Assembly (NCBI GenBank): GCA_902793635.1
Contig: CADBEA010000003.1
Coordinates: forward strand, 1 to 64,000
Direction: 5' to 3'
Origin: an uncultured Erysipelotrichaceae bacterium
Lineage (GTDB): Bacteria > Bacillota_I > Bacilli_A > Erysipelotrichales > Erysipelotrichaceae
DNA: 64,000 nt
A model generated the notes under the pieces. The model worked only from the letters and a program-made list of their open reading frames with translations. It had not been told where the DNA came from and did not search any database. Shown here one piece after another: positions 20,342 to 48,574 of the stretch; position 1 is the stretch's first letter; each line of letters begins with the position of its first letter. The position numbers and the translations under genes were made by a program.

Positions 20342-20725
20342 TTATTCTCCCTGCAGACTCCTGACTTTCGTCCAGATTTCTCTGATTCTTTCTTCCTTTT
20401 TTTCCAGGTACAATGCCCCTAAAATAGCTTCAAATCCGGTGGACATCCGGTAGGTTCCCACATCGGTATTGTGGGGAACTGTGCCGGCATTGCCGTTGCG
20501 GCCGCGATGATAGGTTTCCTCTTCTTCGGCTGTGAAGAAGCCTTCTTCATGCAGAGCTTCATAGAAAGAAGCCTGGGCTTTGGCATTGACATAGGCAATC
20601 GACAGCTTCTGCAGCTGGGTTCCTTTGTTTTTGCCTTCTTCCACCAGATAATTACGGACAGCCAGCGACCACACCGCATCACCGAGAAAGGCGAGGGTAC
20701 GGCCGGAACAGTCGTTCGGCTTCAT
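20342..20725 (-). CDS. mrnC: Mini-ribonuclease 3 (MrnC)
   Basis: 127 residues: a single RNase III domain without a dsRNA-binding domain, the hallmark of Mini-III, which matures 23S rRNA ends. The conserved stretches are LAFLGDAVWSLAVR near residue 11 and the acidic pair around STGFEAILGALYLEKKEER. It overlaps the cysS stop by one base (TAATG at 20725), as is usual for the conserved cysS-mrnC pair. Confidence 0.95.
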   Translation of the reverse strand: MKPNDCSGRTLAFLGDAVWSLAVRNYLVEEGKNKGTQLQKLSIAYVNAKAQASFYEALHEEGFFTAEEEETYHRGRNGNAGTVPHNTDVGTYRMSTGFEAILGALYLEKKEERIREIWTKVRSLQGE

Positions 20726-22059
20726 TACAGAAGCCCTTTCTCCGCCAGTTTGCCGCGCCAGATGTCAGCTTCCGCGAAATTCTTTTCCGCCTTGGCGGCA
20801 TTCCACTTGTCAAACATCTCACGGTCTTCGTCGGTGATTACCGGCTTTTCCACAACAATGCCGAGAATGCCAAGCATCTTTTCCACAGCGTTGCGGTACA
20901 AACCGGTCGTGGCGAAGTTGATTTCTCTCTGCCGCAGCGACTGATTCAGTTTCTTGACGGTTTCAAAGATCACGGCATAGGCGTTCGGTGTGTTCATATC
21001 GTCATCCATCGCATCCAGGAATGCTCTGAATTCCGCTTCGTCATAAGCACTTCCCATATCCGCGTTGGCCAACGCTGCCTTGATGTCTGCCTGACGCATC
21101 GGTTTTACGACCTTGTCCAGTTCCTTGCGGGCTGTCTCGATAGTCTCTTCCGAGAAATTCAGTTCCTTGCGGTAATGAACGGAAGAAACCAGCCATCTGG
21201 TCAGATTGGTTCCGAGCCGCAGAACGACATCCTTGGCCCACATCGTATTGCCCAGTGACTTGGACATCTTTTCGCCGTCGATATTGACCATGGCGTTATG
21301 GATCCAGAAGTTAGCCAGGGAATTGCCGTTCATGGCTTCCTGCTGTGCTGCTTCGTTTTCATGGTGCGGGAACTTCAGGTCCATGCCGCCGCCGTGAATG
21401 TCAATGATCGGTCCCATGTTGTCATTGATCATGACCACGCATTCGGTATGCCAGCCCGGTCTTCCCGGACCCCATGGTGAATCCCATTTGATGCCCATGT
21501 CGGTTTTCTTCCACAGGGCGAAGTCATACGGGTTCTTCTTCTGGTCGTTTGTTTCAATACGGGCGCCGGCTTCCAGGTGTTCCAGTCTCTGATGGGAAAT
21601 CTCACCATAGCTCGGTACACTGTCAACACTGAAATAGACATCACCGTCCACTTCATAGGCATTGCCCTTCTTTACCAGCGCATCCACAAAAGCGATGATC
21701 TGATCCATCGTTTCCGTAACCCGCGGCGTGATATCCGGCAGTTCCGTATTCAGCATGGATCTGACTTCCTGATATGCTTCGATATAACGTTCGGCAATGA
21801 CTGCTTCTGTGGTATTCTCTTCCGCAGCCTTTTTGATGATCTTGTCATCGACATCGGTAAAATTGGATACGTACTTCACCGTATATCCCTCCGCTTCAAA
21901 CAGACGCTTCAGCACGTCAAAGACGATCATCGGTCTGGCATTGCCGATATGGGCGTAGTTATAGACCGTCGGACCGCAGACATACATATCCACATGTCCC
22001 TCATGAATTGGTTTGAATTCTTCCACCTGCAGTGTTTTTGAATTGTACAGTCTGATCAT
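20725..22059 (-). CDS. cysS: Cysteinyl-tRNA synthetase
   Basis: 444 residues; class I synthetase that charges tRNA-Cys. HIGH-type motif NYAHIGNARP at about residue 35, zinc ligands in CGPTVYN and HTECVVM, and KMSKSLGNT near residue 265. It is preceded by a T-box leader with a Cys specifier, so expression rises when tRNA-Cys is uncharged. First gene of cysS-mrnC-rlmB-sigH-like. Confidence 0.97.
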   Translation of the reverse strand: MIRLYNSKTLQVEEFKPIHEGHVDMYVCGPTVYNYAHIGNARPMIVFDVLKRLFEAEGYTVKYVSNFTDVDDKIIKKAAEENTTEAVIAERYIEAYQEVRSMLNTELPDITPRVTETMDQIIAFVDALVKKGNAYEVDGDVYFSVDSVPSYGEISHQRLEHLEAGARIETNDQKKNPYDFALWKKTDMGIKWDSPWGPGRPGWHTECVVMINDNMGPIIDIHGGGMDLKFPHHENEAAQQEAMNGNSLANFWIHNAMVNIDGEKMSKSLGNTMWAKDVVLRLGTNLTRWLVSSVHYRKELNFSEETIETARKELDKVVKPMRQADIKAALANADMGSAYDEAEFRAFLDAMDDDMNTPNAYAVIFETVKKLNQSLRQREINFATTGLYRNAVEKMLGILGIVVEKPVITDEDREMFDKWNAAKAEKNFAEADIWRGKLAEKGLL

Positions 22060-25607: not shown

Positions 25608-25621
25608 TTGCTCAGCGGGCT
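25598..25621. terminator. Shared hairpin between convergent genes
   Basis: AGCCCACTGA-TTGC-TCAGCGGGCT: a 10-pair stem with one mismatch lying over the ends of both convergent genes. The T-runs on either side are weak, so efficiency is uncertain. Confidence 0.5.
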
Positions 25622-26319
25622 GTGTCTTTTCGGATCATCTGATAACCGATACCGATATGGGTCCGGATGAGGTCTTCCCCTTCCGGATCTTTTTTTAGTT
25701 TGCGCCGCAGAGCTGTCATATAGACACGCAGTGAGACGATATCCGATTCCATGCCGTTGCCCCAGATGTGGTCAATGATATAGGAATGGGTCAGGACTTT
25801 GCCGACATTGCGGGCCAGCAGACTCAGCAGTTTGTATTCCATTGCTGTCAGACGTATCTCCTCACCGTCGAGAGATACGACATTGGAGGCATAGTCGATC
25901 GTCAGCGGTCCGTTGTGGAAGACGGCCTTCTCGTCTGCCTTGCTTGCGATATAGGTCATCCGCCGCTGGGCTGCCCGGATCCTGGCCAGCAGTTCCTCGA
26001 TCGAGAACGGCTTGGTCAGGTAGTCGTCAGCGCCGCTGTCGAGAGCCATGATCTTGTCACTGTCTTCGCCTCGCGCGCTGATGATAATGATCATTGCGGA
26101 AGACCAGGAACGGACCGCCTTGATGATTTCGATGCCGTCAATGTCAGGCAGCCCGAGATCCAGCAGGATCATATCCGGCTGATGGGAAGCGCACAACGAG
26201 ATCGCTTCATTGCCTCCCGATGCGGTGATATAGGAATATTCATGAATCTTCAGAGTGGTCGTGATCAGGTTCATGACCGAGCGGTCATCCTCTACGACCA
26301 GGATCTTGAAATCACTCAT
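25612..26319 (-). CDS. kdpE: KdpE-type response regulator
   Basis: 235 residues. Receiver domain with the acidic pair near the start (LVVEDDRS), phospho-acceptor Asp in MILLDLGLPDIDG (about residue 54) and a Lys in YLTKPFS; C-terminal OmpR/PhoB-type winged helix (IRLTAMEYKLLSLLARN, VYMTALRRKLKKD). It overlaps kdpD by 8 bases. Its neighbours are Ktr potassium genes, not kdpFABC. Confidence 0.92.
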   Translation of the reverse strand: MSDFKILVVEDDRSVMNLITTTLKIHEYSYITASGGNEAISLCASHQPDMILLDLGLPDIDGIEIIKAVRSWSSAMIIIISARGEDSDKIMALDSGADDYLTKPFSIEELLARIRAAQRRMTYIASKADEKAVFHNGPLTIDYASNVVSLDGEEIRLTAMEYKLLSLLARNVGKVLTHSYIIDHIWGNGMESDIVSLRVYMTALRRKLKKDPEGEDLIRTHIGIGYQMIRKDTAR

Positions 26320-28300
26320 AGATATTGACCTCCTTTGCGTTCAGCGAGAATCGGAAGATGGCTCCCTGCGGTTTGTTGTCCAGTACCTCAATGGTATTGC
26401 CGTGCGCGGTGATGATCATCTGGCAGAGGTCGAGGCCGAGGCCCATACTGCGGTAGCTGTCAGCCAGCGGATGCGATCCGGTATAGAACAGTTCGAAGAC
26501 GTGCTCCTTGTCCTGATCGCTTATGCCCTTGCCGAAATCTTCGACACTGATCCAGATCTTATCGCCCTCTTTGACACGCCGCAGGATAATCTTTGTGCCG
26601 GCCGGTGTGTATTTGACGGCATTGGAAAGCAGATTGATCAGTACCTGCAGGATCATCTTGGTATCCATTTCCGCGAAGCATGGTTCATCGTCATTGATAC
26701 ACTCGATCGGATGTTCCTTGGAACGGATCAGCCGCACGCTTTCGGCAATGACGTCATCGACGTTCTCGACGGTCAGATTCAGATAATGACTGTTTTCCAG
26801 ACGGGTCATGACAAGAATGTTTTCCATCTGTTCCCGCAGCCATTCCGAATCGTCCATCAAATCAGCATAGATCTTCGCCCGGTCTTCTTCACTCAGCACC
26901 GCTTCGTTTTCCGCCAGAGTGGATGCGTTGCCGTAAATGGATGTCAGCGGCGTGCGCAGATCGTGGGAAAGCGAGCGAAGCAGACCTGCCCGCAGACGTT
27001 CGTTTTCGGCGGCGATTTCCGCCGCTCTTCTTTCCTGAACCATGCGGCTGTTGTCCAGTGCCATGGTGAATTCATGCAGGATCGACAGCAGAATCGTGTT
27101 CTCAAATTCCGTGAACGGTCCTTTTTTCATGTCGATACCGATGACGCCGTACTGGTTCTCACCGGTATGAATGCTGAGATAACGATACCGGAAATTACCG
27201 TAATGGGATGTGAAGGCACCGGAATGATGACGGTTTTCCAGCGTCCACAGCACGGCTTCCTTTTCGCTGTCCAGCAGACTCTGGTCGATTTCCTTTCCTT
27301 CCGACGCGTAGATGTCTTCCGCTTTGTCAGCGCTGGTGCCGCGGTAGAAAAGAACCGTACGGTTAAGCAGATGCACCAGCTGCATGCAGGTGATGCGGAT
27401 GATTTCGTCCGTGCCGGTCACCCGCTCCAGCTGGTTGGATGTATCGAGAAGCACTTTGGCCTGATAGGCATTCTCCGCTGAAGTGCGGGCAATGTCCTTC
27501 ATGCGGCTGGTCAGGGAACTGGTGATCAACGCGGCCATGACGGACAGCAGATAGGTGAGCAGATATTCGGTTTCATAGACCAGCAGCGTGAAACGGGGCT
27601 CGATGAACAGGAAATTGAACAGCAGGATATACAGAATGGCGGCCAGAATACCGTACAGCCGGTGTGATGTCAGCAGCGAGGCAATCAGTACGCCGAGGAT
27701 ATAAATGGTAATGATGTTGGCATTGCTGAAACGCGAAGCATAGAACAAGTACGAAACGCCCGTGGCCAGCGCCATGATGATCAGCACGCACAAAAAGTCC
27801 CGCAGGTTCCATTGCGGCAGATTTCCTTTCTTCTCCAGCTGCGGATAGGAGGATGCACGGCTGTCGGGAATGATATGAATATCCACTTCCGGCAGATAAT
27901 TGATCAGCTGCTCAGAAATGTTTTTCCGATACTGCAGAATATGGGCCGGCGCGGTATAGCCGAGAAACAGATCGGTCGTGTTGACGCGCTTGGCATATTC
28001 GGAAATGGTCAGAGCCAGGTCGCTGCTCTGGGCGGTCTGGATCTCAAAGCCGAGGTCTCTGGCATACTGCATGTTCTCGAACAGTTTGGAGCCGGGCGGA
28101 ATCTCGCCGATCGTTTCGCTGACATAGAGAGCGATGGCGTTGACATCTTCGCGGATCAGCCTGGACGCGGCATGAATGACTCGCTGGTTGCTTGGCGACG
28201 CAGAAAGGCAGACCAGGATACTGGTCTGCTTGTTGTTTCTGTTTTCCGGCGCCGTTTTCTTCATAAGGTCTGATTCGGGTTCTGATCCCCTTTTTTTCAT
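26312..28300 (-). CDS. kdpD: Sensor histidine kinase, short KdpD without the N-terminal KdpD domain
   Basis: 662 residues. Order: USP-like domain (about 27-150, TSILVCLSASPSN), DUF4118 four-helix membrane unit (about 168-265), GAF domain (about 290-410), HisKA with phospho-acceptor H446 in SLSHDLRTPLTS, and HATPase with N-box and G boxes. Classical KdpD is near 900 residues and starts with a Walker-containing KdpD domain, which is absent here. Gene order ktrB-ktrA-kdpD-kdpE suggests it senses K+ or turgor for the Ktr system. Start could be a few codons off: no strong RBS is visible and an ATG at 28264 is possible. It overlaps kdpE by 8 bases. Confidence 0.88.
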   Translation of the reverse strand: MKKRGSEPESDLMKKTAPENRNNKQTSILVCLSASPSNQRVIHAASRLIREDVNAIALYVSETIGEIPPGSKLFENMQYARDLGFEIQTAQSSDLALTISEYAKRVNTTDLFLGYTAPAHILQYRKNISEQLINYLPEVDIHIIPDSRASSYPQLEKKGNLPQWNLRDFLCVLIIMALATGVSYLFYASRFSNANIITIYILGVLIASLLTSHRLYGILAAILYILLFNFLFIEPRFTLLVYETEYLLTYLLSVMAALITSSLTSRMKDIARTSAENAYQAKVLLDTSNQLERVTGTDEIIRITCMQLVHLLNRTVLFYRGTSADKAEDIYASEGKEIDQSLLDSEKEAVLWTLENRHHSGAFTSHYGNFRYRYLSIHTGENQYGVIGIDMKKGPFTEFENTILLSILHEFTMALDNSRMVQERRAAEIAAENERLRAGLLRSLSHDLRTPLTSIYGNASTLAENEAVLSEEDRAKIYADLMDDSEWLREQMENILVMTRLENSHYLNLTVENVDDVIAESVRLIRSKEHPIECINDDEPCFAEMDTKMILQVLINLLSNAVKYTPAGTKIILRRVKEGDKIWISVEDFGKGISDQDKEHVFELFYTGSHPLADSYRSMGLGLDLCQMIITAHGNTIEVLDNKPQGAIFRFSLNAKEVNIYE

Positions 28301-28392
28301 TCATTTCTGAACAATGGGGAATCTGTCTTTATCATACACCTCAATTGTACGGGCCTGGCGTTTCAGATATTGAATATTGCTGTCGCTTATCT

Positions 28393-29037
28393 TCAGAGAT
28401 AGAAAATCTTCTGAATGTCATCGTGTTTGCCGAGCACCAGCATGTTCTGGCCGTAATGCAGGACCGTGTCGATGCTGATGTTGAAATCCATGCGCTGGCG
28501 CTTGATGCCGAGAATATTAATGTTGTATTTCTTACGCACGTTCAGCTCACCGACCCGTTTGCCGTCCCAGTGCTGCGGTACCGCAACTTCGATAATGGAA
28601 TAACCGTCCATCAGTTCGATATAGTTGGAAATGTTGTCCGAACTGTAGCGGATCGCCGTCCAGCTGCCCAGCTGCCGTTCCGGGAAGACGACAGCGGCAG
28701 CGCCGTTACGCAAAAGGAATTTTTCCTGGGACGCGGTCGTGGCACGGGCAATGATCTTTTTCGCTCCCAGCTCATCGAGCAGGAACGTCGTTTCCAGCGA
28801 CGCCAGGAAGTCATCGCCGATGGCGACGATACAGAGATCATAATCGGTTACACCGATGGAAGCCATGAACGCCGGATCAGTGGAATCACCGATCTGGGCG
28901 TTGGAGGCATAGGGCAGGATCTTGTTGATCCGCTCTTCGTCCTTGTCAACGACCATGGTCTGATGACCCATATCATGCAGTTTGATCGTTGTATAGCGGC
29001 CGAATCTTCCGGCGCCGATTACCAGTATGTTTTTCAT
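28393..29037 (-). CDS. ktrA: KtrA, cytoplasmic gating subunit of K+ uptake
   Basis: 214 residues. RCK domain with NAD/ATP-binding ILVIGAGRFGRYT at the N-terminus and a C-terminal TrkA_C domain (about 135-214). KtrA rings gate KtrB. The gene lies 14 bases after ktrB, forming the usual KtrAB pair. In Bacillota KtrA proteins often bind c-di-AMP through the C-terminal domain; this is known for the family, not seen here. Confidence 0.93.
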   Translation of the reverse strand: MKNILVIGAGRFGRYTTIKLHDMGHQTMVVDKDEERINKILPYASNAQIGDSTDPAFMASIGVTDYDLCIVAIGDDFLASLETTFLLDELGAKKIIARATTASQEKFLLRNGAAAVVFPERQLGSWTAIRYSSDNISNYIELMDGYSIIEVAVPQHWDGKRVGELNVRKKYNINILGIKRQRMDFNISIDTVLHYGQNMLVLGKHDDIQKIFYL

Positions 29038-29051
29038 TTAAACTCTCCTTT

Positions 29052-30392
29052 TTATCCGACAGTCAGTTTTTCAACCGGCATTTTACTCGTTTCTTTTTTG
29101 GTCAGGGATACCATGGCATACGTCAGAGTCAGACCGCCGACACGGCCGATGTACATAAAGCAGATCAGAACGATCCTGCTCAGAGCGGAAAGGCCCGGGG
29201 TAATACCGGTCGTCAGTCCGACGGTGCCAAGTGCGGAGGCACATTCGAACATGACCGGCAGCACCGGCAGATCCTCCGCGAAAGACAGAATGAACGTACC
29301 GCTCAGCAGCAGTACCAGATAGAGAACGAACAATGTATAGGCATTGTGGATCGCGTCAGTTTCAATACGGCGTCTCGCGAAATTGGTATTCTCGCGGCCT
29401 TTCATATATGTCCTTGCCGAAAGGACAATGACTGCGACGGTCGTCAGTTTCATACCACCGGCGGTGGAGCCTGGCGCGCCGCCGATCATCATTAACATGA
29501 TCGTCAGCAGCAGACTCGCTTCGTGCATCGAACCGTAGTCCGCGGTATTGAAACCGGCAGTACGCGGCGTTACGGTCTGGAACCAGGACATCAGGATCCT
29601 GTCCTTCAGCGGTGCATTGGCAAATTCCAGGAAGAAAAAATAGATAAACGGAATCGTCAGCAGGATCGCTGTCGAAACCAGAATCAGTTTGGTCTGCAGA
29701 CGCAGGCTTTTATAACGGAACTTGTTGGCCAGCAGGTCGCCCCAGGTCAGAAAACCGGCACCGCCGACGATAATCAGGGCACAGATCACGAAATTGACCC
29801 ATGGATGGGAAGCGTAGCTGGTCAGCGAAGAAAACGGACCTCTGACACCCATCAGGTCAAAACCGGCATTGCAGAAAGCCGATATCGAATGAAAGATGGC
29901 ATAGCCCAGTCCTTTGAGGAAGCCGAAGTCTTTCACGAACACTGGTAACAGCAATAATGCGCCGGTTGCCTCAAAGACTACGGTCGCCTTCAGAAAGAAC
30001 GCTGTGAAGCGGACAATCCCGCCCAGCTGCGGTGCCGATACGGCATCCTGCATGGCAATTCTCTGCAGCAGTCCGATTCTTTTGCCGGTCAGCAGCATCG
30101 TGGCGATAAAAGCCGTAACGACACCCAGGCCGCCGATCTGTATCAGGATCAGGATAACCGTTTTGCCAAACAGCGACCACTGTGTCGCCGTATCATATAC
30201 GACAAGACCGGTCACACAGGCGGCCGACGTCGATGTGAACAGTGCGTTCAGAAAAGGTACACTCTGATGATTGACACTGGCAGCGGGAAGACACAAAAGG
30301 CCCGCGCCTACCAGAATCAGGGCAAAAAAGCCGAGCAGAATGGTACGGAAAGAATTCATGATATCCTGCAGCTTAATGCGCATTTTCGTCAT
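29052..30392 (-). CDS. ktrB: KtrB/TrkH K+ transport pore subunit
   Basis: 446 residues with many membrane helices: four repeated pore units of the TrkH/KtrB type. P-loop filters are visible, e.g. TSTSAACVTGLVV near residue 50 and GAPGSTAGGMKLTT near 310. The length fits KtrB rather than the longer TrkH. First gene of ktrB-ktrA-kdpD-kdpE; TATAAA lies upstream with a long inverted repeat over the promoter (30425-30459). RBS AGGAAGGAG precedes the ATG. Confidence 0.93.
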   Translation of the reverse strand: MTKMRIKLQDIMNSFRTILLGFFALILVGAGLLCLPAASVNHQSVPFLNALFTSTSAACVTGLVVYDTATQWSLFGKTVILILIQIGGLGVVTAFIATMLLTGKRIGLLQRIAMQDAVSAPQLGGIVRFTAFFLKATVVFEATGALLLLPVFVKDFGFLKGLGYAIFHSISAFCNAGFDLMGVRGPFSSLTSYASHPWVNFVICALIIVGGAGFLTWGDLLANKFRYKSLRLQTKLILVSTAILLTIPFIYFFFLEFANAPLKDRILMSWFQTVTPRTAGFNTADYGSMHEASLLLTIMLMMIGGAPGSTAGGMKLTTVAVIVLSARTYMKGRENTNFARRRIETDAIHNAYTLFVLYLVLLLSGTFILSFAEDLPVLPVMFECASALGTVGLTTGITPGLSALSRIVLICFMYIGRVGGLTLTYAMVSLTKKETSKMPVEKLTVG

Positions 30393-30476: not shown

Positions 30477-30508
30477 TTAAAAACACAGATCATGGTCTGT
30501 GTTTTTAA
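30477..30508 (-). terminator. Terminator of the XRE/RCC1 - GYF_2 transcript
   Basis: Minus strand AAAAACACAGA-CCATGA-TCTGTGTTTTT followed by AATATT; a strong hairpin directly after the GYF_2 gene, and symmetrical enough to work in both directions. Confidence 0.85.
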
Positions 30509-30510
30509 TA

Positions 30511-30702
30511 TTACGCTTCTTTTGGCGGCAGGTACACGGAATAGATGGACTTTCCGACATTCAGCCAGGCGTCGAGATATGACATCCAGATATAGTCCCT
30601 CTCTTCCAGAATACCGTGACGGATCAGGGAAATGATCTCGGCATCCGTATAAGGACCGTATTTCTTTCTGTCAGGTTTCATATAATACCAGACTTTTTCC
30701 AT
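30511..30702 (-). CDS. GYF_2-domain small protein
   Basis: 63 residues, essentially one GYF_2 domain: WYYMKPDRKKYGPYTDAEI with the G-P-Y of the family, then IRHGILEERDYIWMSYLDAW. GYF_2 domains occur in bacterial proteins with membrane modules and probably bind proline-rich peptides; stand-alone copies are less common. The gene starts 1 base after the stop of the XRE-RCC1-FN3 gene, and its ribosome site (GGCGGAG) lies inside that gene, so they are coupled. A physical partner relation, perhaps with the proline-containing cytoplasmic linker of the neighbour, is inference. Confidence 0.75.
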   Translation of the reverse strand: MEKVWYYMKPDRKKYGPYTDAEIISLIRHGILEERDYIWMSYLDAWLNVGKSIYSVYLPPKEA

Positions 30703-30703
30703 C

Positions 30704-32812
30704 TTATTCTCCGCCTTCCGGCTCGCCTGAGCCGCTGCTCTGCAGGACTACTTCAACACTGTAGTCACTGTTGATCTCAACTGTTCTGTCCGGATTTGCC
30801 AACGTATAGCCAGCCGGGATCAGATCGGCTGTCGCCATTTCCTGAATCGTGTGAATACCCTGTTTGACAACAATGACCCGTGTTTCGAAAGAAGCACCGT
30901 CATTGCTTGTGAAATTCAGGGTTACGCTGAAGGCCGGCAGTTCATACATCAGTTCCACCTGAGCCGGCACACTCTCCGAATAACTGGAGGATTCCGAGCA
31001 GGCTTTGATCGAAACGGTGTGAATACTCTGGTCGTTGAAGCCGGTTCTTTCATAGAAGAAGGCATTCTGTTCCGTACGGTATTCTTCGCCGCCGTTCAGG
31101 GAAATCATATAGTAACTGGCGTTCTCTACCGGATCCCATCTGACGATCCAGTTTTCCGCCGTGCTTTCCGCTCTCACGTTGGACGGTGTGTCCAGGGTGA
31201 TCGTGCGGGATTTGAATGTATAGCTGACCGTTGCCGGTTCGCTTGTTTCGTATTTGTCTGTCTTGTTGGAATGCGCGGTAATCGTTACCTGGTAGGTATC
31301 GCCGTCATTCAGTTCGGATGCCGGAATGGAAACGCTGGTCGAAGAGGTCTGCGGGATCTCGGTGGCGAGAGCCGGTTCGAATTTCACTTCGTAGTAGTCA
31401 GCGTTCGTTACCGCCTTCCACTTGATCTGGATATTGGCGGTCGTTTCCGAGAAGTTGATATCCTTGACCATATCCAGCTGCTTCTTTTCGGTATCGTCCT
31501 TATCCTTGCCGGACGAACTGTTGACATACTGACCGTGGCTGTTGTCACCGACACCGAACATATTGCCGGAACGGTCTACCGCGATCAGTGTCGTGCCGTG
31601 AGCGGCGATATAGCGTATGTCGCTCCACTGCTCGACAGCCTTTTTCATATCTTCGTCTTCCGTGACGATCAGAACCTTGCCTTTGCTGGTCATGCCGGCT
31701 ACGAAGTTCGAACCGACAGCAGCTTCGTCAATGTCTGTCCAGGACGAGACGTCCGATGCGGCTGCGTCTGTCAGACTGTAGGATTTGACCGTACCGCTGG
31801 TGCTGATCAGCAGGATCTGTGAATCACCGATCGCCACACTCTTGATGCCGCCGATGCCGTTGACCGCGTCCGCGCCGGAGGCATGAACAGTGCCGTCCGT
31901 GCTCAGACCGATCGTGACCGCGTTACCGGCATACAGGGAATTGATATTCGCCCAGCCGCTGACCTGACAGCCGGTGTCACTGCCGGTGCAGAGTACCTCG
32001 CCGTCATCGTTCAGAGCTACCGTATGGGTTCTTCCGGCCGCGATCTGGACAATATTCTTCCAGTCGGAAATCTCAGTATCGTCACCGTTTGTCACCACCG
32101 TGCCGTCGGGTTTCAGACCGGCCGCGTGACTGTCATACGCACTGACCTGCACGGTTCCATCGAACAGGTTCTTGTCTTTAAACTGGCCGTACATCTGAAG
32201 TTCACCGCTCTTTTTTATATAGAGCGAATAGGTGTCGCCAAGAGCCAGACGGTTGACGCCGCTCAGTGCGACGGAACTGCCACCCGCTCCCCGAAGAAGG
32301 AAGATCAGTCCCAGCACAAGAGCCAGAGCTCCGGCTGCCACAGCGACGATGATCGCTGTCGTCTTTTTCTTCTGTTCCTTCGTTGGTTTGGCCGGCCGGA
32401 TCACCGGTCTCGACTGGGTTTTTTCCATCGGCGCGTCATCTTCGATGATCTGATTGGCGACGGTGGATTCAAAGCCCATCGTATCCATGACCTTGGTGCT
32501 GCCAAGATCGGAAAGAGTATTGACGTTCACCGTCTTTGTCTCTTCGGCCGGCGGTGTGATGAACGGAATTTCCACGCTTTCCGTGGAGACCGGCGGCAGT
32601 ACGACTTCCACCGTATTGTCCACCAGCATGACGACATGGATGCCGAATACGTCAGCCAGCCGTTTCAGCGTGTGAATGCTGGGAATGGACGTTCCGTTTT
32701 CCCAGTGCATGTATTCCGTCACGGGTATATTCATTTTTGCGGCAACATCGCCCTGGGACAGGCCCAGCTGTTTGCGCATTGATGTCAGTTTTTCAGGGAG
32801 TCTGTTAGCCAT
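30704..32812 (-). CDS. Membrane protein: XRE helix-turn-helix, TM, RCC1-like repeats, FN3 domains
   Basis: 702 residues. An XRE/Cro-type HTH about 8-64 (LTSMRKQLGLSQGDVAAKMN), a Pro/Thr-rich linker about 70-150, one membrane helix 151-173, then an outside region: RCC1-like repeats about 185-450 (AAGRTHTVALNDDGEVLCTGS is typical), two FN3-like modules about 455-660 and a short beta domain to the end. The cytoplasmic HTH with an outside beta-propeller recalls RodZ, which also has an HTH, one membrane helix and an outside beta domain. Promoter TTGAAA-17-TACAAT is at 32863-32835 and RBS GGAGGG is present. Role unknown; see findings. Confidence 0.85.
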   Translation of the reverse strand: MANRLPEKLTSMRKQLGLSQGDVAAKMNIPVTEYMHWENGTSIPSIHTLKRLADVFGIHVVMLVDNTVEVVLPPVSTESVEIPFITPPAEETKTVNVNTLSDLGSTKVMDTMGFESTVANQIIEDDAPMEKTQSRPVIRPAKPTKEQKKKTTAIIVAVAAGALALVLGLIFLLRGAGGSSVALSGVNRLALGDTYSLYIKKSGELQMYGQFKDKNLFDGTVQVSAYDSHAAGLKPDGTVVTNGDDTEISDWKNIVQIAAGRTHTVALNDDGEVLCTGSDTGCQVSGWANINSLYAGNAVTIGLSTDGTVHASGADAVNGIGGIKSVAIGDSQILLISTSGTVKSYSLTDAAASDVSSWTDIDEAAVGSNFVAGMTSKGKVLIVTEDEDMKKAVEQWSDIRYIAAHGTTLIAVDRSGNMFGVGDNSHGQYVNSSSGKDKDDTEKKQLDMVKDINFSETTANIQIKWKAVTNADYYEVKFEPALATEIPQTSSTSVSIPASELNDGDTYQVTITAHSNKTDKYETSEPATVSYTFKSRTITLDTPSNVRAESTAENWIVRWDPVENASYYMISLNGGEEYRTEQNAFFYERTGFNDQSIHTVSIKACSESSSYSESVPAQVELMYELPAFSVTLNFTSNDGASFETRVIVVKQGIHTIQEMATADLIPAGYTLANPDRTVEINSDYSVEVVLQSSGSGEPEGGE

Positions 32813-32834
32813 CTTATGCCCTCCTGTGTTTAAT

Positions 32835-32863
32835 ATTGTACGTTTTAACTTTCACAGTTTCAA
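32835..32863 (-). promoter_or_regulatory. Promoter of the XRE-RCC1 gene
   Basis: Minus strand TTGAAA, a 17-base spacer and TACAAT, 23 bases before the ATG at 32812. Confidence 0.65.
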
Positions 32864-32869
32864 CACATA

Positions 32870-33643
32870 TCAGCCCTGCTCAGCCGTATAGTAACTGACC
32901 AGTTCTGCCTGCAGTTTCTCGTCAATTCCATACTGAGCCTTAAAGAAAGTCTCGTAATCTCCATAACGGTCTTTGATTCTCTGCAACGACAGTTCGGCGT
33001 TCTCGCGGTTGACGCCTTCCACGCCGCGCAGGGCATGACGCAGTTCGTCATTGTTGCCGATCAGAGCGTCCATCTTCTTCAGAAAACGGTCGATCGCGGC
33101 CGTCCGGTAGTCGTTGGTCAGCTCGTAATCATCCAGCGCCGTCTCTTCGTCCACGCCCAGCAGGATCAGGATCAGTACCGCCGCGATGCCGGTGCGGTCC
33201 TTGCCAGCCGTGCAGTGGAACAGGATCGGTGTCTCCTTCTTCTTGATGACGTCAAACATCTCTATATAAGCTTTCGTAAACGGCAGGTTCCCATACATCA
33301 TTTCCAGGAAATCACTGCCCTTGTTGTCGGAAAAATCCGCCTGGTCGATCGCCTTCGGAGAGAAATCCACCGGTTTGCCTTCACTGTCCGTCAGGGCATT
33401 GATTGCATGATAGACAGCCCCGGGCAGCAGCGGATCCTCCAGTTCGGATATTTCTGTATCGGAACGGAAATCAAAGACATGTCTGATATGAAGACTTCTG
33501 ACATATGCCAGTTCTTCTTCGCTCAGCTTTCCCAGCGGGCCACTGCGGAAAAACTCGCCATACCGGATGATCCGTCCGTCTTTATTCACATAACCTCCCA
33601 GTTCCCGGAAGTTATGTTCTTTTCTGATATCTTTCAGTTCCAT
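32870..33643 (-). CDS. Tyrosine-protein phosphatase (Y_phosphatase3 family)
   Basis: 257 residues. The P-loop FHCTAGKDRTGIAAVL near residue 155 has the catalytic Cys and Arg, with the general-acid region FDFRSDTEI near residue 57. Its pattern (NFRELGGY near the N-terminus, then HCTAGKDRTG) is that of bacterial phosphatases acting on phosphotyrosine or phosphoinositides; target unknown. RBS GAAAGGAC precedes ATG and a TATAAT lies upstream at 33669-33664. Confidence 0.88.
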   Translation of the reverse strand: MELKDIRKEHNFRELGGYVNKDGRIIRYGEFFRSGPLGKLSEEELAYVRSLHIRHVFDFRSDTEISELEDPLLPGAVYHAINALTDSEGKPVDFSPKAIDQADFSDNKGSDFLEMMYGNLPFTKAYIEMFDVIKKKETPILFHCTAGKDRTGIAAVLILILLGVDEETALDDYELTNDYRTAAIDRFLKKMDALIGNNDELRHALRGVEGVNRENAELSLQRIKDRYGDYETFFKAQYGIDEKLQAELVSYYTAEQG

Positions 33644-41905: not shown

Positions 41906-44900
41906 CTAGGAAGTCATTTTTTTCCTGGTGACCAGTAAAGTCCCGGCTGTCAGTATCAGAAGCAGACCGATCACGGTAAAGATCGTGGTTCCCGGTCCGC
42001 CAGAAGAAGGCAGTTCATATTTGCCCATGCTGTTTTTGACCGTCAGTGTATAAGACACATGCCCGTTTGCATAATCTGTCTTGCTCAGCCATTCGGCAGG
42101 AGCGCCGCTGTTAATGACAACCGTTCCGTCTTTACCGATCGTAAAGCAGATATCTTCACTCAGCTTTTCATAACCATCCAGCGTCTGTGTTTCCGTCAGA
42201 TAGTATGTGCCAACCGAAAGATTATCCATATTGATATTTGGCAACAATCCGGTTCCATCTGTTACAAGATCCTCATAACCGGTTATTGGCTGATAGTCTT
42301 TTCTCTTCTGACCCTGTTGGTCGGTTACCTGGTTATACAATGCGAAATGAACACCCGCCATCTTTTCACCGGTTATCGCATCAACTTTCACTGCTTTGAA
42401 GTCAACGATCCGGTTTTTGATCGTGATGCGGGCTTTCATATCCCCGTTTTCATATTCCATAAGTGTGTACATGGATTCATCCACACCGCTGACGGTAACT
42501 TTTTCATCTTCATCGATCGTGATCGTCATTGCACCATCCAGAACAGTATAGCCCTTCGGCACTTCTGTTTCCTGCAGTGTGTATGTTCCCGCATTCAGAT
42601 AGGCAATGGTAATCAGGCCGGTTTCATCGGATGTGTATTTGCTTGCGGCGACATCTTTTCCATCACTGTCTTTCAGTGTAAAGACAGCACCTTGCAGATC
42701 GGTTCCTTCCCAGTCCGTCTTATAGAGTTCAATACCCGGACGGGAGTTTGTGACTTTATCGGTACGGACATTCTCATTCTGGGTTGTCTGTTTGCCCTGT
42801 TCATAATGAACTTTATACTGATAGCCGTCCTGATGGGTCCCTCCGACTGGTGTGCCGCCAACTGTCAGAGTGCCGCCTTCGTCAATCGGATAAACATCAG
42901 AATAGCCGATAATATTTCCTTCTATGTCTACCGCGATATTTCCTTCCAGCGTCACTTCCCGGACAATGTAGTTTTCAAACGGAATACCGCTTTGCAGATT
43001 ACCGAAGAAGTAATACAGCGATGTCTCGGATGACAGCATCTGCCGGACGCTGTCCCTCAGCAATGTCAGATTACCGCTGTCATCTTTGACATATACAGCA
43101 AAGTAAATCGGATCATGACTTGCCATAAAGTCTTTATCTGTCCAGATCTTCTCGACTGTCAGACCCCAGCCTTTCTGATTGCGGACATCGATTTTCGGAC
43201 TTTCCTCAGGCTCAAGAACATCCGAAATCGGTGTCGTGCCATGCTTTTCTTCCGATTCCGTATCTGTCCGGGTATATCCGTCCAGCAGACGCAGGGTGTA
43301 TCCCCGCGGGATTTCTTCCGCTCTTTCTTCAACCTTATACTTTGTGCCGACGATTAAATCGCGCACTTCAACGGTATAACCGGCTGGAATCTTGGAAATC
43401 GTACCGTTCATGGATGTCCGGAAGATAATAGCTTCCTTTTCCGTGCTGGGCAGAGCATCCAGATATTCTTTCAGTTCATCGTACTCCGTGTAGCTAAGTG
43501 ATTCGAATTTCTGTGTTGCCACATCCCATTTGCAATAGTGACCAGCCGGATCTTTGACAAAATACGGATACAGATTCGCCAGCGGCAGGTTATCCTCATC
43601 CGCGTTTTCTGTGCCGAGATAGAGACGGAAACGGAAGAGCGTATCATTATCAGGATATGTCAGTTCTGTCAGTCCATCCACATTATAAAGCTTCTTGGTA
43701 ATGGCCAGTTCCCGCATGGCTCCGTCTCTGACATGGTTGTCATAATCCACCTGCGGCCGGCTTTCCATTGTATCTTTAGCAACAGAATAGTCTTCTCTTG
43801 GCGGATTGACCACGGAAGATTCTCCAGTCAATTTGGTATTGTTTGCGGTCACTTTGTCATAGATTTTCGGATCCACATTGCATTCCTTAACGTAATATTT
43901 AACGCCGTCAGGCAGATCAACGACAGCAGATTCACCCGGTTTCAGGAAGAAGACGTGCTCGTACGCCTGTGAACATCCGGCAGGTGTGAAACTGCTCATA
44001 TATGTTACAGATCTGTTGGTGTCCTTGTATTTCACAAGGTCCTGATCGCCTTCATTCTCGCCAAGCAGATGATATTGTTCCGTACCGTCCTTAGCTTTGT
44101 AATAAATCTGATATGGGAATTCAATCATACTGTTGGCCGGATCGTCTGTGCCGGACAGTTTTTTGCTGAGAACAAACGTGCCTGGTTTGACAGCAGACAG
44201 ATTAAAGCGCATGTGCAGGTTGGATGCACCAGCTCCTCGTTCCATATAGAACATCTTCATCGAATGGTTCGTATAGTCCTTAAAGACGTAGTTTCCTTCT
44301 TCATTCAACTTAAAGATCTCAGCCAGCTTATCTTCGATTTCCTGCTCGGACATTTCTCCTCTGTCCTGATAATTCTTTTTGAATGTTTCATACAATGTGG
44401 AATTGCCGCGGGAACTGGTAATGACACCTGTCCGGAAGTTGACTGAACCGACCTCAGCGGAATGGACGCCGCCCAGATCCAGAACGAGTTCACCATCTAC
44501 ATAGAGCCAGAAGTCATCGTCACCGGAGAACTCAAAGATAATATCATGGCCCCAGGCATCAAGACCGCTGGCTGTCTGGGTAAACTTCGCTTCCATTTCC
44601 ATACCGAAGAAATAATCAACTTCCGTATTCTTGCCAAGGTCATACATCTTTTCACCTTTACGCGCATCAGTATCCGAAAGCGGATTACCCAAAACATCTG
44701 TCTGATTGGTGATAAAATTGCCGTTACTGTCTTTGGCATACCCATTTTCTTTTATTTCGTTATATGGCATGAACTGGCCATGTTCTCTGGTGATTCCATG
44801 CTCGTTGCTGCCGGTTATCGCACCAAGCTGATCATAGACGGTAAAAGTGCCATCCTCATTCAGATGAGCGAAGTTCTTGGTGCTGTCATATTCAAAATAA

Positions 44901-47900
44901 CCGCTTTCGTTATAGATACTTTCTATAAGCAGATGATTGACCGTTTGTGATCCGGCCGATTTCTCATTGAACAGGACAGAAAGTGATTTTCCCTGCCCTG
45001 ATTCTCCTGCCTTGTCGGTACCTTTTGGATAACCATCCTCTCCCAGATTTGTGGAAAGCAAACCGGATTTTTTACCGTCTTCTCCCAGGAAAGCTTTCTG
45101 TTCTATGTCTCTGTTCCCAACCTTTGGATTGTTAAAATCCATCATCTTCATGGTGATGCCATACTCGTCATTGTCGATCGTATCAACTGTTGTCAGCTGA
45201 TCGTGGGGATCTACCGGATTGATAACAGCAAAATAGAAATCTTCGGCTTCTGAGAGCGGGCATGCGACAACTTTTCCGTTCTCTGTTTTCAGACCGGAAT
45301 ACGCATACTGATTGTCGTCCCAGGCAATGATGCTTGTATAGTTTTCGCCGTATCGTCTGCCGCCCATGTTGATGCCGACCGGATCATTAGAGAAAATAGC
45401 CTGGTCTGATACTTGTGGGCCAATATAGTTGTGATACTGGGTATTCTGCAGATCATAGAAATAACTTAGTGTCCCGTCCGGATTGGTATATTCCGTGAAG
45501 GTCCAGAGGGCAGTATTGACATTACTGCCGATCCATTCGATATTATCGCCGGTATCATAGCAGCGTACTAAAGAGCCGTCGTGATCGACTGCGAAGAATT
45601 CATATTTCTTTTTCTCTTCGTTCCAGATACGGGTATAAATAACTACCTGCTGCCCATCATGAACATTGACAGTATCGGAAACACTGACTTTCTGGGCTGT
45701 ATATAACGTGAAATCATCATCGTCCAGCACGGATTTCTCCACCAGATTCAGCCATGTGGATGCGTTGCTGTTATTCGCACCGGCGAAGCCACGGGCAGAC
45801 GTGCCGCTCAGATCCGCTGAAACATTATATCCATTCACCGTGAAATGCCATTTTCCGCTGTTGGCTCCGGTTCCGGGAACGGCTTTGATAACCGAATACT
45901 CCGGATCTGGTGTATCTGACAAAGTAATATTCTTGCCATTCACGGTTAAATACTTGGCTGCGCCGTTTACTGTTGTCTTCAGGTAATAATAGTCTTCTCC
46001 CCTCGATTCAAACGTCCATTCCTGAATGTCACTGCCTTCTGCCACCAGCAGAATACCTTCATTATCCAGAACATCCGGCCGCATCAGCATATCCACCGCG
46101 CTCAGCTCATTGGTGCTGCCGACTGTAACTGTATCTGCCATCATGGCGGCCGCTGTGGCAGTGTCGTTGTGGAAGGCGATGCCGTATGTCTTGCCATTCA
46201 GTTTATATGGATCATCCTTAACCTCGTAAGAATCTGCATAAGAAATGGTTATCTGGCTGTTTGCAGCATTGTTGTTATCTGTCCAGAAACGCATACCGCC
46301 ACCGCTGCCGGAATGCTGCAGCCATTTGTCCTGACCTTTTATTTTCAAATAGAATTTGCCTTCTGCTGCCTGAGCCTGAGAGATTTCAAAAGCGGTTTTG
46401 TTTGTATTGGAAAGACTGACGAGATTGTTGCTCTGGTTAAACATATACTGCTTGGTTCCATCTATCATCGTGTAAATATAGAAAGAACCATCGCCAGCAG
46501 ACTCAAAATACCATTCATCGGCTTCTTCAGATTTATTGGTTTCAATAAAGGCACTGTTTCCATTCAAATCATTGGTGGTATAGTTCTTTAAACCGTTATA
46601 GGAAAGATAGAATGGTTCAGGTTCATTATCAACCAGTTCATCTGTTCCCATTACAGTTCGAATCTCTACTTTGGCTGGTTCCGGCGCATCGACAATGGCA
46701 TAGACCGAGAACCCTGTTGTTTCAAAAACAACACTGTTTTCTTCCGTTGTACTGTCAAGAACTTCCGGCTCTTCACCAAAGTGGACGACACTGAGGTTTT
46801 CACCTGCCGCATCATTCAGTTCAATAGATACACCAACCACACTGCCTTCTTTGGGCTGGATGGTTTCATTGTCTTTGATGATCTTTATATCGAAGAACCG
46901 GGCATAGGAAAGCGCGTCCGTTTCCTGACCTAATGTTTCTGCCGTTCTGCTCAGATAGGTTTCATACTCTTCCGGATCAACGATCTCCGCTGCTTCCAGT
47001 TCTGCGTCTTCGGGAATGTCCGCATCACTCTTGTATGTCACAGTAATGAGATAACCCGAGCCATCGGCGGTAATGACATTCACATACAGCTGTTCATCGG
47101 TTACCTGCACAGCAAATACCTGACCGTCCTTCATTGTGATGGTCAGTGTTTCTTTTGTACTAAATGGTTCCAGACTCTCCATGATCCAGTCTTTTTCACC
47201 AAAGAACAGGAACTTCTCGTTCTTTGTGATTCTGATCAGAGAAGGATCACTGAAAACAACATCGTCCACTTCATCCATGAAGCTGTCAATGTCTTCTTCT
47301 GTTTCAATACCAAGGGCAATGACCAGTTCTTTGAATGATATTGTACTGCCGCCTTCCATGGAGAAGGTAAATGTCTTTCCGTCTACTTCATAGCTGAAAT
47401 CAACTGTATATACGACTGCATAGACCGAGAACTGTTCCGCTTCAAAGGCAATGGTATTCTCCGTCGTTTCGATATCTTCGATCTTCTCACCGTTGCCCTC
47501 ATTATCCACATGAACGACTGAGACCGCTTCCGCCTGTTTTGGTGCTTCAGACGGTGTGATCATGACCTGGATCGGTGTGGATGGCTGCACTTCATTGTCA
47601 TAGGCATCAAGGAAGGTAATATCGACTGCTGAAACTTTTCTTACCTTGCCTTCTACGGTATTAGCCACAGTCTCTTCAATATTCTCGTCATTGACGGCAT
47701 ATACCGTCATGGTCGTGCCTTCCGGGAAGGCTGTATGATCCGCCCGGACATTGACATCCAGGCCGCTGACCCGTTCAAAGAAGACAAAGTCTTCCGCTTC
47801 TTCTGTCACCTGCTCAGTTTCTTCTGCTGTTTCAGCCGGTTCTTCACTTTCTTCTAAAACAGTTGTTTCTGTTTCTTCCGGTTCTGTTTCTGTCAGGATT

Positions 47901-48574
47901 TCTTCAGGAACTTCTGTTTCTGCTGTCACTGGCTCTTCTTTTTTATATACAGCCGTGAAATATCCGGTTCTGTCTGTCACAAAACTGACGATTTGTTTCT
48001 TTTCTGTATTTACAGCAACAACCTGATGTTCTTCGGTATCCAGCAGTTCTGTTTCATATTCTCCCGTCGGTGTTTCTTTGATCAGGAGCAGTTGCGGGGT
48101 TCTTTCGTCTTCTCTCAGTTCTCTTTCTATCTGGAAGTGCAGACTGCCCTGCGGCTGTACTTCATTTTCCGATTCGTCCATGATCTTTATGGAGAGGATT
48201 TCTTCATCCGTTTCCATATCAGGATTCTGTTCATGAATACTGTCGAGCAGTTTCTGTTTCTCTTCTTCTTTAACGATTTCCGCACTTAAAACACTGCCAA
48301 CTGGAAGTGTCTCCTCTTCTGCTTCGGCTGTGATTTTATAGGATGTATCTTCAATGATTTTTTCCAATATGACGGCAGGATTCTGTGTTTCTGTCTGACC
48401 GCCGCTGTTCAGTACAATGCCGGGATCATCTTCCGCAACATCTGACTCAATGGTAATAGCAGGCAATATTAAAGCGTATGTTGTTGCGAACACAACAACA
48501 CCGGCTAATATTCTGCGAAGGGAATATCGTTTCCGGTTCGCTGCTTTTTCGAGAAATCTGTCGAATTTGTTCAT
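41906..48574 (-). CDS. Giant cell-wall-anchored adhesin with LPSSG signal
   Basis: 2222 residues. N-terminus RKRYSLRRILAGVVVF then TTYALILPAI, a signal peptide type seen in Bacillota surface proteins. Region 220-620: repeated beta domains with the recurring FSVYAVV/IV core. About 640-1000: two beta-trefoil-like modules (FESAGDGSFYIYT, FESRGEDYYYLKT). About 1290-1400: fibro-slime/PA14-like domain (IIFEFSGDDDFWLYVDG). About 1780-2150: three or more Cna_B-type domains (e.g. IELYKTDWEGTDLQGAVFTL). The tail is LPSSGG, a membrane helix and RKKMTS, a sortase signal with Ser for Thr. It is the last gene after a coiled-coil protein and a dedicated signal peptidase. Expected on the outer wall, for adhesion. 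Confidence 0.9.
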   Translation of the reverse strand: MNKFDRFLEKAANRKRYSLRRILAGVVVFATTYALILPAITIESDVAEDDPGIVLNSGGQTETQNPAVILEKIIEDTSYKITAEAEEETLPVGSVLSAEIVKEEEKQKLLDSIHEQNPDMETDEEILSIKIMDESENEVQPQGSLHFQIERELREDERTPQLLLIKETPTGEYETELLDTEEHQVVAVNTEKKQIVSFVTDRTGYFTAVYKKEEPVTAETEVPEEILTETEPEETETTVLEESEEPAETAEETEQVTEEAEDFVFFERVSGLDVNVRADHTAFPEGTTMTVYAVNDENIEETVANTVEGKVRKVSAVDITFLDAYDNEVQPSTPIQVMITPSEAPKQAEAVSVVHVDNEGNGEKIEDIETTENTIAFEAEQFSVYAVVYTVDFSYEVDGKTFTFSMEGGSTISFKELVIALGIETEEDIDSFMDEVDDVVFSDPSLIRITKNEKFLFFGEKDWIMESLEPFSTKETLTITMKDGQVFAVQVTDEQLYVNVITADGSGYLITVTYKSDADIPEDAELEAAEIVDPEEYETYLSRTAETLGQETDALSYARFFDIKIIKDNETIQPKEGSVVGVSIELNDAAGENLSVVHFGEEPEVLDSTTEENSVVFETTGFSVYAIVDAPEPAKVEIRTVMGTDELVDNEPEPFYLSYNGLKNYTTNDLNGNSAFIETNKSEEADEWYFESAGDGSFYIYTMIDGTKQYMFNQSNNLVSLSNTNKTAFEISQAQAAEGKFYLKIKGQDKWLQHSGSGGGMRFWTDNNNAANSQITISYADSYEVKDDPYKLNGKTYGIAFHNDTATAAAMMADTVTVGSTNELSAVDMLMRPDVLDNEGILLVAEGSDIQEWTFESRGEDYYYLKTTVNGAAKYLTVNGKNITLSDTPDPEYSVIKAVPGTGANSGKWHFTVNGYNVSADLSGTSARGFAGANNSNASTWLNLVEKSVLDDDDFTLYTAQKVSVSDTVNVHDGQQVVIYTRIWNEEKKKYEFFAVDHDGSLVRCYDTGDNIEWIGSNVNTALWTFTEYTNPDGTLSYFYDLQNTQYHNYIGPQVSDQAIFSNDPVGINMGGRRYGENYTSIIAWDDNQYAYSGLKTENGKVVACPLSEAEDFYFAVINPVDPHDQLTTVDTIDNDEYGITMKMMDFNNPKVGNRDIEQKAFLGEDGKKSGLLSTNLGEDGYPKGTDKAGESGQGKSLSVLFNEKSAGSQTVNHLLIESIYNESGYFEYDSTKNFAHLNEDGTFTVYDQLGAITGSNEHGITREHGQFMPYNEIKENGYAKDSNGNFITNQTDVLGNPLSDTDARKGEKMYDLGKNTEVDYFFGMEMEAKFTQTASGLDAWGHDIIFEFSGDDDFWLYVDGELVLDLGGVHSAEVGSVNFRTGVITSSRGNSTLYETFKKNYQDRGEMSEQEIEDKLAEIFKLNEEGNYVFKDYTNHSMKMFYMERGAGASNLHMRFNLSAVKPGTFVLSKKLSGTDDPANSMIEFPYQIYYKAKDGTEQYHLLGENEGDQDLVKYKDTNRSVTYMSSFTPAGCSQAYEHVFFLKPGESAVVDLPDGVKYYVKECNVDPKIYDKVTANNTKLTGESSVVNPPREDYSVAKDTMESRPQVDYDNHVRDGAMRELAITKKLYNVDGLTELTYPDNDTLFRFRLYLGTENADEDNLPLANLYPYFVKDPAGHYCKWDVATQKFESLSYTEYDELKEYLDALPSTEKEAIIFRTSMNGTISKIPAGYTVEVRDLIVGTKYKVEERAEEIPRGYTLRLLDGYTRTDTESEEKHGTTPISDVLEPEESPKIDVRNQKGWGLTVEKIWTDKDFMASHDPIYFAVYVKDDSGNLTLLRDSVRQMLSSETSLYYFFGNLQSGIPFENYIVREVTLEGNIAVDIEGNIIGYSDVYPIDEGGTLTVGGTPVGGTHQDGYQYKVHYEQGKQTTQNENVRTDKVTNSRPGIELYKTDWEGTDLQGAVFTLKDSDGKDVAASKYTSDETGLITIAYLNAGTYTLQETEVPKGYTVLDGAMTITIDEDEKVTVSGVDESMYTLMEYENGDMKARITIKNRIVDFKAVKVDAITGEKMAGVHFALYNQVTDQQGQKRKDYQPITGYEDLVTDGTGLLPNINMDNLSVGTYYLTETQTLDGYEKLSEDICFTIGKDGTVVINSGAPAEWLSKTDYANGHVSYTLTVKNSMGKYELPSSGGPGTTIFTVIGLLLILTAGTLLVTRKKMTS

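Follow-up and report, generated by a model that had tools for sequence, protein, structure and literature searches.

The window, i.e., the whole stretch of 64,000 nucleotides that was analysed, contains two adjacent genes on the minus strand. The first encodes a long, single-span protein of a gut bacterium, with a DNA-binding-type fold predicted inside the cell and a propeller outside. The second encodes a small GYF_2 protein. The features of the locus are as follows:

32835–32863, minus strand: promoter-like site TTGAAA-17-TACAAT, coinciding with the upstream boundary (32863) of the region described
30704–32812, minus strand: large gene (702 aa, ATG start), encoding an HTH, linker, transmembrane helix, RCC1-like propeller, FN3 and variable C-terminus
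32615–32812, minus strand: N-terminal XRE-type HTH, residues 1–66 (Pfam HTH_3, E 1.3e-12)
32561–32578, minus strand: linker motif S-V-E-I-P-F, residues 79–84, kept in half of the distinct orthologs
32444–32506, minus strand: linker Thr motifs L-x-x-T106-x-V and F-x-x-T117 (the second imperfect), residues 103–123, from motif enrichment
32297–32353, minus strand: predicted transmembrane helix, residues ~154–172 (hydropathy 2.95)
31550–32257, minus strand: seven-bladed RCC1-like propeller, residues 186–421, predicted extracellular (model and profile)
31226–31462, minus strand: FN3 domain, residues 451–529 (Pfam fn3, E 4.4e-7)
30953–31192, minus strand: second, weaker FN3-like stretch, residues ~541–620 (profile only)
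30511–30702, minus strand: GYF_2 gene (63 aa), 1 bp after the large gene (Pfam GYF_2, PF14237, E 4.1e-8)
30479–30506, minus strand: terminator-like hairpin AAAAACACAGA-CCATGA-TCTGTGTTTTT directly past the GYF gene, read from the sequence
20725–22059, minus strand: cysS, the start of the usual downstream neighbourhood, ~8.5 kb from the pair in the window

The original prediction of an XRE domain joined through one helix to RCC1 and FN3 modules was borne out by the Pfam domains and the single predicted helix in one ORF, the HTH_3 (1.3e-12), RCC1_2 (6.1e-21) and fn3 (4.4e-7) matches all scoring over the curated cutoffs. For the outside modules it held for one propeller and one clear FN3 domain. 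The second FN3 is indicated by a profile match to fibronectin 6xay_A across residues 458–631, and no fn3 Pfam match was found at ~541–620. The 20 residues preceding the transmembrane helix contain seven K/R and the following 20 contain two, so the N-terminus is predicted to lie inside; with one helix and a basic stretch ahead of it, the HTH would be inside and the propeller outside. Hydropathy and positive-inside charge agreed on this predicted topology in 82 orthologs. A single-sequence model of the whole protein (pLDDT 36.7) contained a low-confidence helix at residues 149–174.

As had been proposed, the ORFs 30704–32812 and 30511–30702 are one base apart, and the ribosome site of the GYF_2 gene, AAGGCGGAG, is located inside the final codons of the large gene. 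The GYF_2 protein clears the Pfam gathering score (33.3 bits vs. 25.8). It is a free-standing single domain, whereas other genera of the family mostly have long, often tandem GYF_2 frames. A promoter-like site was found upstream of most orthologs, mostly as TTGAAA with TAAAAT or TATAAT, and 82% of the upstream regions scored at least 9 of 12 compared with 34% of shuffles. The terminator scan, which demands a T run beyond the stem, did not list the hairpin at 30479–30506. The promoter-like site and this hairpin suggest that the two genes are transcribed together as a unit.

Orthologs of the large gene were found in about 55 of 59 congeners, nearly all of which carry both genes. Within the family, 13 of the 59 sampled genera have the large gene, and every sampled genome of these 13 has it. 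In the relatives examined, the XRE domain, helix, RCC1 and FN3 modules are encoded by one gene and not by separate ones. Among 296 genomes sampled from the class and 392 from the phylum, above-threshold matches were confined to this family, and no full-length ortholog was seen outside it. The closest named record was a goat-ileum MAG, Solobacterium sp. There were 94 ortholog loci, six of which were cut at contig ends and left out. At 84 of the remaining 88 the GYF_2 gene lies directly 3' of the large gene, with a gap of −59 to +33 bp (mostly −8 to +18), which agrees with the conserved pairing that had been expected. The four loci without it (L140, L141, L142 and L157) all belong to one genus, g40, where no GYF frame was visible after the large gene when checked by eye. 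With the large gene retained, this genus offers a natural test of how far the two genes depend on each other. The wide occurrence of orthologs and the conserved pairing indicate that the pair is the product of neither chance nor misassembly.

In most relatives, the pair is located just before cysS-mrnC-rlmB and a sigma factor gene, often with gapA ahead of it; a location before cysS was found in at least 9 of the 13 pair-carrying genera. The gene order in the window is the same, except that trkH-trkA, a sensor-kinase/regulator pair and a few other genes intervene before cysS. This housekeeping position points to vertical inheritance with the core genome and gives no hint of a regulated target alongside. 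An intervening segment at 25612–30392 (minus strand) consists of the trkH-trkA operon followed by genes for a DUF4118 sensor kinase and an OmpR-type response regulator (KdpDE-like). On the other side, a Y_phosphatase3 tyrosine-phosphatase gene is located at 32870–33643, 57 bp upstream of the pair, and in a few congeners, too, the pair is preceded by a related phosphatase gene. Further along the window, the gene at 41906–48574 encodes a surface protein of 2222 aa that has SpaA-type domains as well as an LPXTG-type anchor; this gene lies in a lower-GC region.

Seven propeller repeats are recognisable by eye in the sequence. The propeller was modelled from four sequences (the window, one near-identical MAG and two distant clostridial propellers), and the model (pLDDT 83.7, pTM 0.82) contained 21 strands, three per blade, with seven blades closing the ring. 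BLIP-II, the beta-lactamase inhibitory protein II of Streptomyces exfoliatus, was the best PDB match of the ortholog profile (E 1.4e-16) and the top Foldseek match of the model, while VIA-align gave UVR8 (Z 25) and BLIP-II (Z 24) almost equal scores. BLIP-II is likewise an RCC1-like propeller in which each of the seven blades has three strands (PMC6121496); it binds beta-lactamase and has a proposed role in cell-wall remodelling (PMC9146315). The two propellers share about 20–25% identity, but BLIP-II is a secreted single domain, whereas the propeller described here is predicted to be membrane-anchored and joined to a cytoplasmic HTH. RCC1-like propellers bind many unrelated things, so the similarity to BLIP-II does not establish a penicillin-binding protein as the ligand; at the level of the model, the resemblance shows fold and kinship and is no guide to the ligand. 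A clostridial membrane protein (L065:5392-6807) with TPR-like repeats carries a similar RCC1 propeller at its C-terminus, which suggests that elsewhere the propeller is combined with different modules. Of the propeller cysteines, C282 is invariant and C275 is present in 78 of 82 orthologs. A conserved disulfide acting as a redox sensor was considered and set aside: related propellers from clostridia have a GQC cysteine in the equivalent position.

The HTH is the best-conserved domain of the large protein (KL 2.2–3.1). Its assignment to HTH_3, a family annotated as DNA-binding, raises the question of whether the large protein is a membrane-tethered one-component transcription factor, in which the propeller would sense an outside ligand, the tethered HTH would repress or activate genes and the GYF protein would modulate this action. 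Among NCBIfam models, the RstR repressor comes nearest (below cutoff), the residues Q20 and N39, typical of DNA binders, are conserved, and a tether of variable length suits a domain that reaches for DNA. However, the HTH is near-neutral (mean net charge −0.2 across orthologs). Positions 32 and 36, which our own alignment on the ENG motif equates with the base-reading Q29 and Q33 of the 434 repressor, rank only 63rd and 50th of 64 in conservation and vary even within the genus. In a search that covered the regions upstream of the genes, no widely shared palindrome was found: the most frequent occurred in at most 6 of 84 regions compared with 2–3 in mononucleotide shuffles, and the top palindromes were AT-rich. 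Nor is there a conserved target gene beside the pair, except the housekeeping cysS cluster. The near-neutral charge and the two variable, presumed base-reading positions make binding of a protein by the HTH somewhat more likely than binding of DNA, as judged from sequence. Regulators of the CadC/ToxR type share the plan of an inside HTH, one helix and an outside sensory domain. Their HTH is of the winged OmpR type; in the large protein, it is of the XRE type and is not clearly indicated to bind DNA. The tethered transcription factor is possible, if rather doubtful, and is the main rival of the reading that we prefer, namely a membrane-spanning adaptor.

The same plan of a cytoplasmic N-terminal HTH, one membrane helix and a beta-rich outside part is found in RodZ (HTH_25, transmembrane helix and DUF4115), whose HTH, like the one described here, may be a protein-binding module. 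The large protein could accordingly be imagined to stand in for RodZ, with its HTH binding MreB, and a resemblance to RodZ was part of the original prediction. The HTH is, however, of the HTH_3/HTH_19 type, and Pfam gave no match to HTH_25 (PF13413) in the large protein up to E 1. DUF4115 was not found in the outside part, which has the RCC1-like propeller and FN3 in its place. A long motif-bearing tether, a dedicated GYF_2 partner and occurrence without MreB are further differences. In order to evaluate the distribution, 145 genomes of the family were searched for HTH_25 (RodZ) and MreB, and only strong matches were counted because weak matches to the MreB model (~600 aa) look like DnaK-type proteins. 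It was found that 9 of the 13 pair-carrying genera have neither MreB nor RodZ, and four have both. All six sampled genomes of the window's genus lack the two proteins, as does the window genome, and 33 pair-carrying genomes were scored as lacking MreB. Among the genera with MreB, g40 is mixed, one of its genomes being without RodZ; apart from this genome, the four genera that have MreB have RodZ too. The association between presence of the pair and absence of MreB (Fisher p 0.0075 by genus) ignores shared ancestry and was given no weight. The absence of MreB from 9 of the 13 genera means that the pair does not need it. On this distribution, RodZ substitution was rejected for this lineage, and we regard it as extremely improbable.

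The linker, 18 to 129 residues long among orthologs, is among the least conserved regions of the large protein. It had been described as proline-rich and as a possible GYF ligand. Across orthologs, the linker is not markedly rich in proline, and a GYF ligand of the known PPG type is unsupported: in 74 distinct linkers, PP occurred 11 times compared with 39 expected from shuffles, and PPG did not occur at all. Two other motifs were enriched. A motif of the S[VI]xIPF type is present in 37 of the 74 linkers (0.2 expected), and motifs of the [LF]xxTx[VI] type were observed 48 times over the ortholog linkers (6.2 expected). The ligand of the GYF protein could be the IPF motif or another protein. 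Both motifs are missing in the genera with short linkers, where the GYF protein usually lacks its N-terminal W-x-Y and GP parts; in several genera, GYF proteins without these parts keep a C-terminal SIYxFYL-type motif. The genus g56 is an exception, with a short linker and a normal GYF protein, and the correlation between linker and GYF protein is therefore imperfect. As the motifs are absent in short-linker genera and the GYF gene is absent in g40, neither is universally required.

The enriched threonine motifs bring to mind streptococcal MapZ, which has one helix, an outside domain and a largely disordered cytoplasmic part in which StkP phosphorylates T67 and T78 (PMC7055233). In a division landmark of this kind, a PASTA kinase would phosphorylate the Thr motifs of the tether and an FHA protein would recognise them, while the outside domain would hold the wall. 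The genome does encode PASTA-domain ORFs (candidate kinases) and one membrane FHA protein, and most pair-carrying genera lack MreB. However, Pfam detected no MapZ domain in the large protein, its N-terminal HTH has no counterpart in MapZ, and the Thr motifs are missing in short-linker genera. Phosphorylation of the tether is a conjecture prompted by the enrichment of these motifs. Taken together, a MapZ-like landmark appears quite improbable. The sole FHA protein found in the genome (L182:6173-7207) is encoded on the same contig, ~6 kb past the window end, and consists of an N-terminal membrane helix, a Pro/Glu-rich stretch with PPPPKKK and a C-terminal FHA domain.

Between a surface-to-cytoplasm signal and a scaffold, the two roles originally suggested, we lean towards a scaffold or adaptor. 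The interpretation that we prefer, although held at slightly less than even confidence, is that the pair forms a lineage-specific core membrane assembly, with the large protein as a membrane-spanning adaptor between a cytoplasmic partner and the cell wall or a surface enzyme. The N-terminal HTH would dock a cytoplasmic protein and read no DNA operator. It would be followed by a flexible cytoplasmic tether of 18–129 residues bearing short docking or phosphorylation motifs and by the single helix predicted to cross the membrane. Outside, the modelled BLIP-II-type propeller with its FN3 spacers may bind a cell-wall enzyme or another surface ligand. The GYF_2 protein would act in the cytoplasm as a dedicated subunit and would probably bind to the tether or the HTH, as the conserved pairing suggests. 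The likely role of such an assembly would be the MreB-independent coupling of envelope growth or division to a process in the cytoplasm.

Several lines of evidence argue for this adaptor: the single-gene architecture, which is conserved in 13 genera and all their sampled genomes; the GYF gene next to it at 84 of 88 loci; the pair's own promoter-like site and housekeeping location before cysS, with no variable target gene beside it; the best-conserved yet near-neutral HTH with variable positions 32 and 36; the seven-bladed propeller with its BLIP-II kinship; and the enriched linker motifs. Counting against it are the DNA-binder residues Q20 and N39 conserved in the HTH, the absence of the linker motifs in short-linker genera and the lack of a visible GYF gene in g40. 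A more specific version, in which an MreB-independent envelope or division scaffold would use the HTH as a protein adaptor, a kinase-regulated Thr tether, a propeller gripping a penicillin-binding protein and a GYF_2 subunit, is unlikely.

Literature searches combining GYF domain, bacteria, RCC1 and membrane returned nothing, those on GYF_2 yielded nothing except human GIGYF2 or papers on unrelated subjects, and those on HTH-RCC1 proteins and membrane XRE proteins gave nothing relevant. Text searches also found no functional study of free-standing bacterial GYF_2 proteins. As far as these searches reach, no description exists of this pair, which is a core component in part of one bacterial family. 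It is an unusual combination of known domains in a conserved gene pair. It would provide an example of a membrane protein that incorporates a propeller of the BLIP-II type, and it supplies a partner protein that can be tested for a free-standing GYF_2 protein of bacteria. Its persistence in genomes that lack MreB and RodZ makes the pair a candidate connector between cytoplasm and cell wall in bacteria without the usual cytoskeleton.
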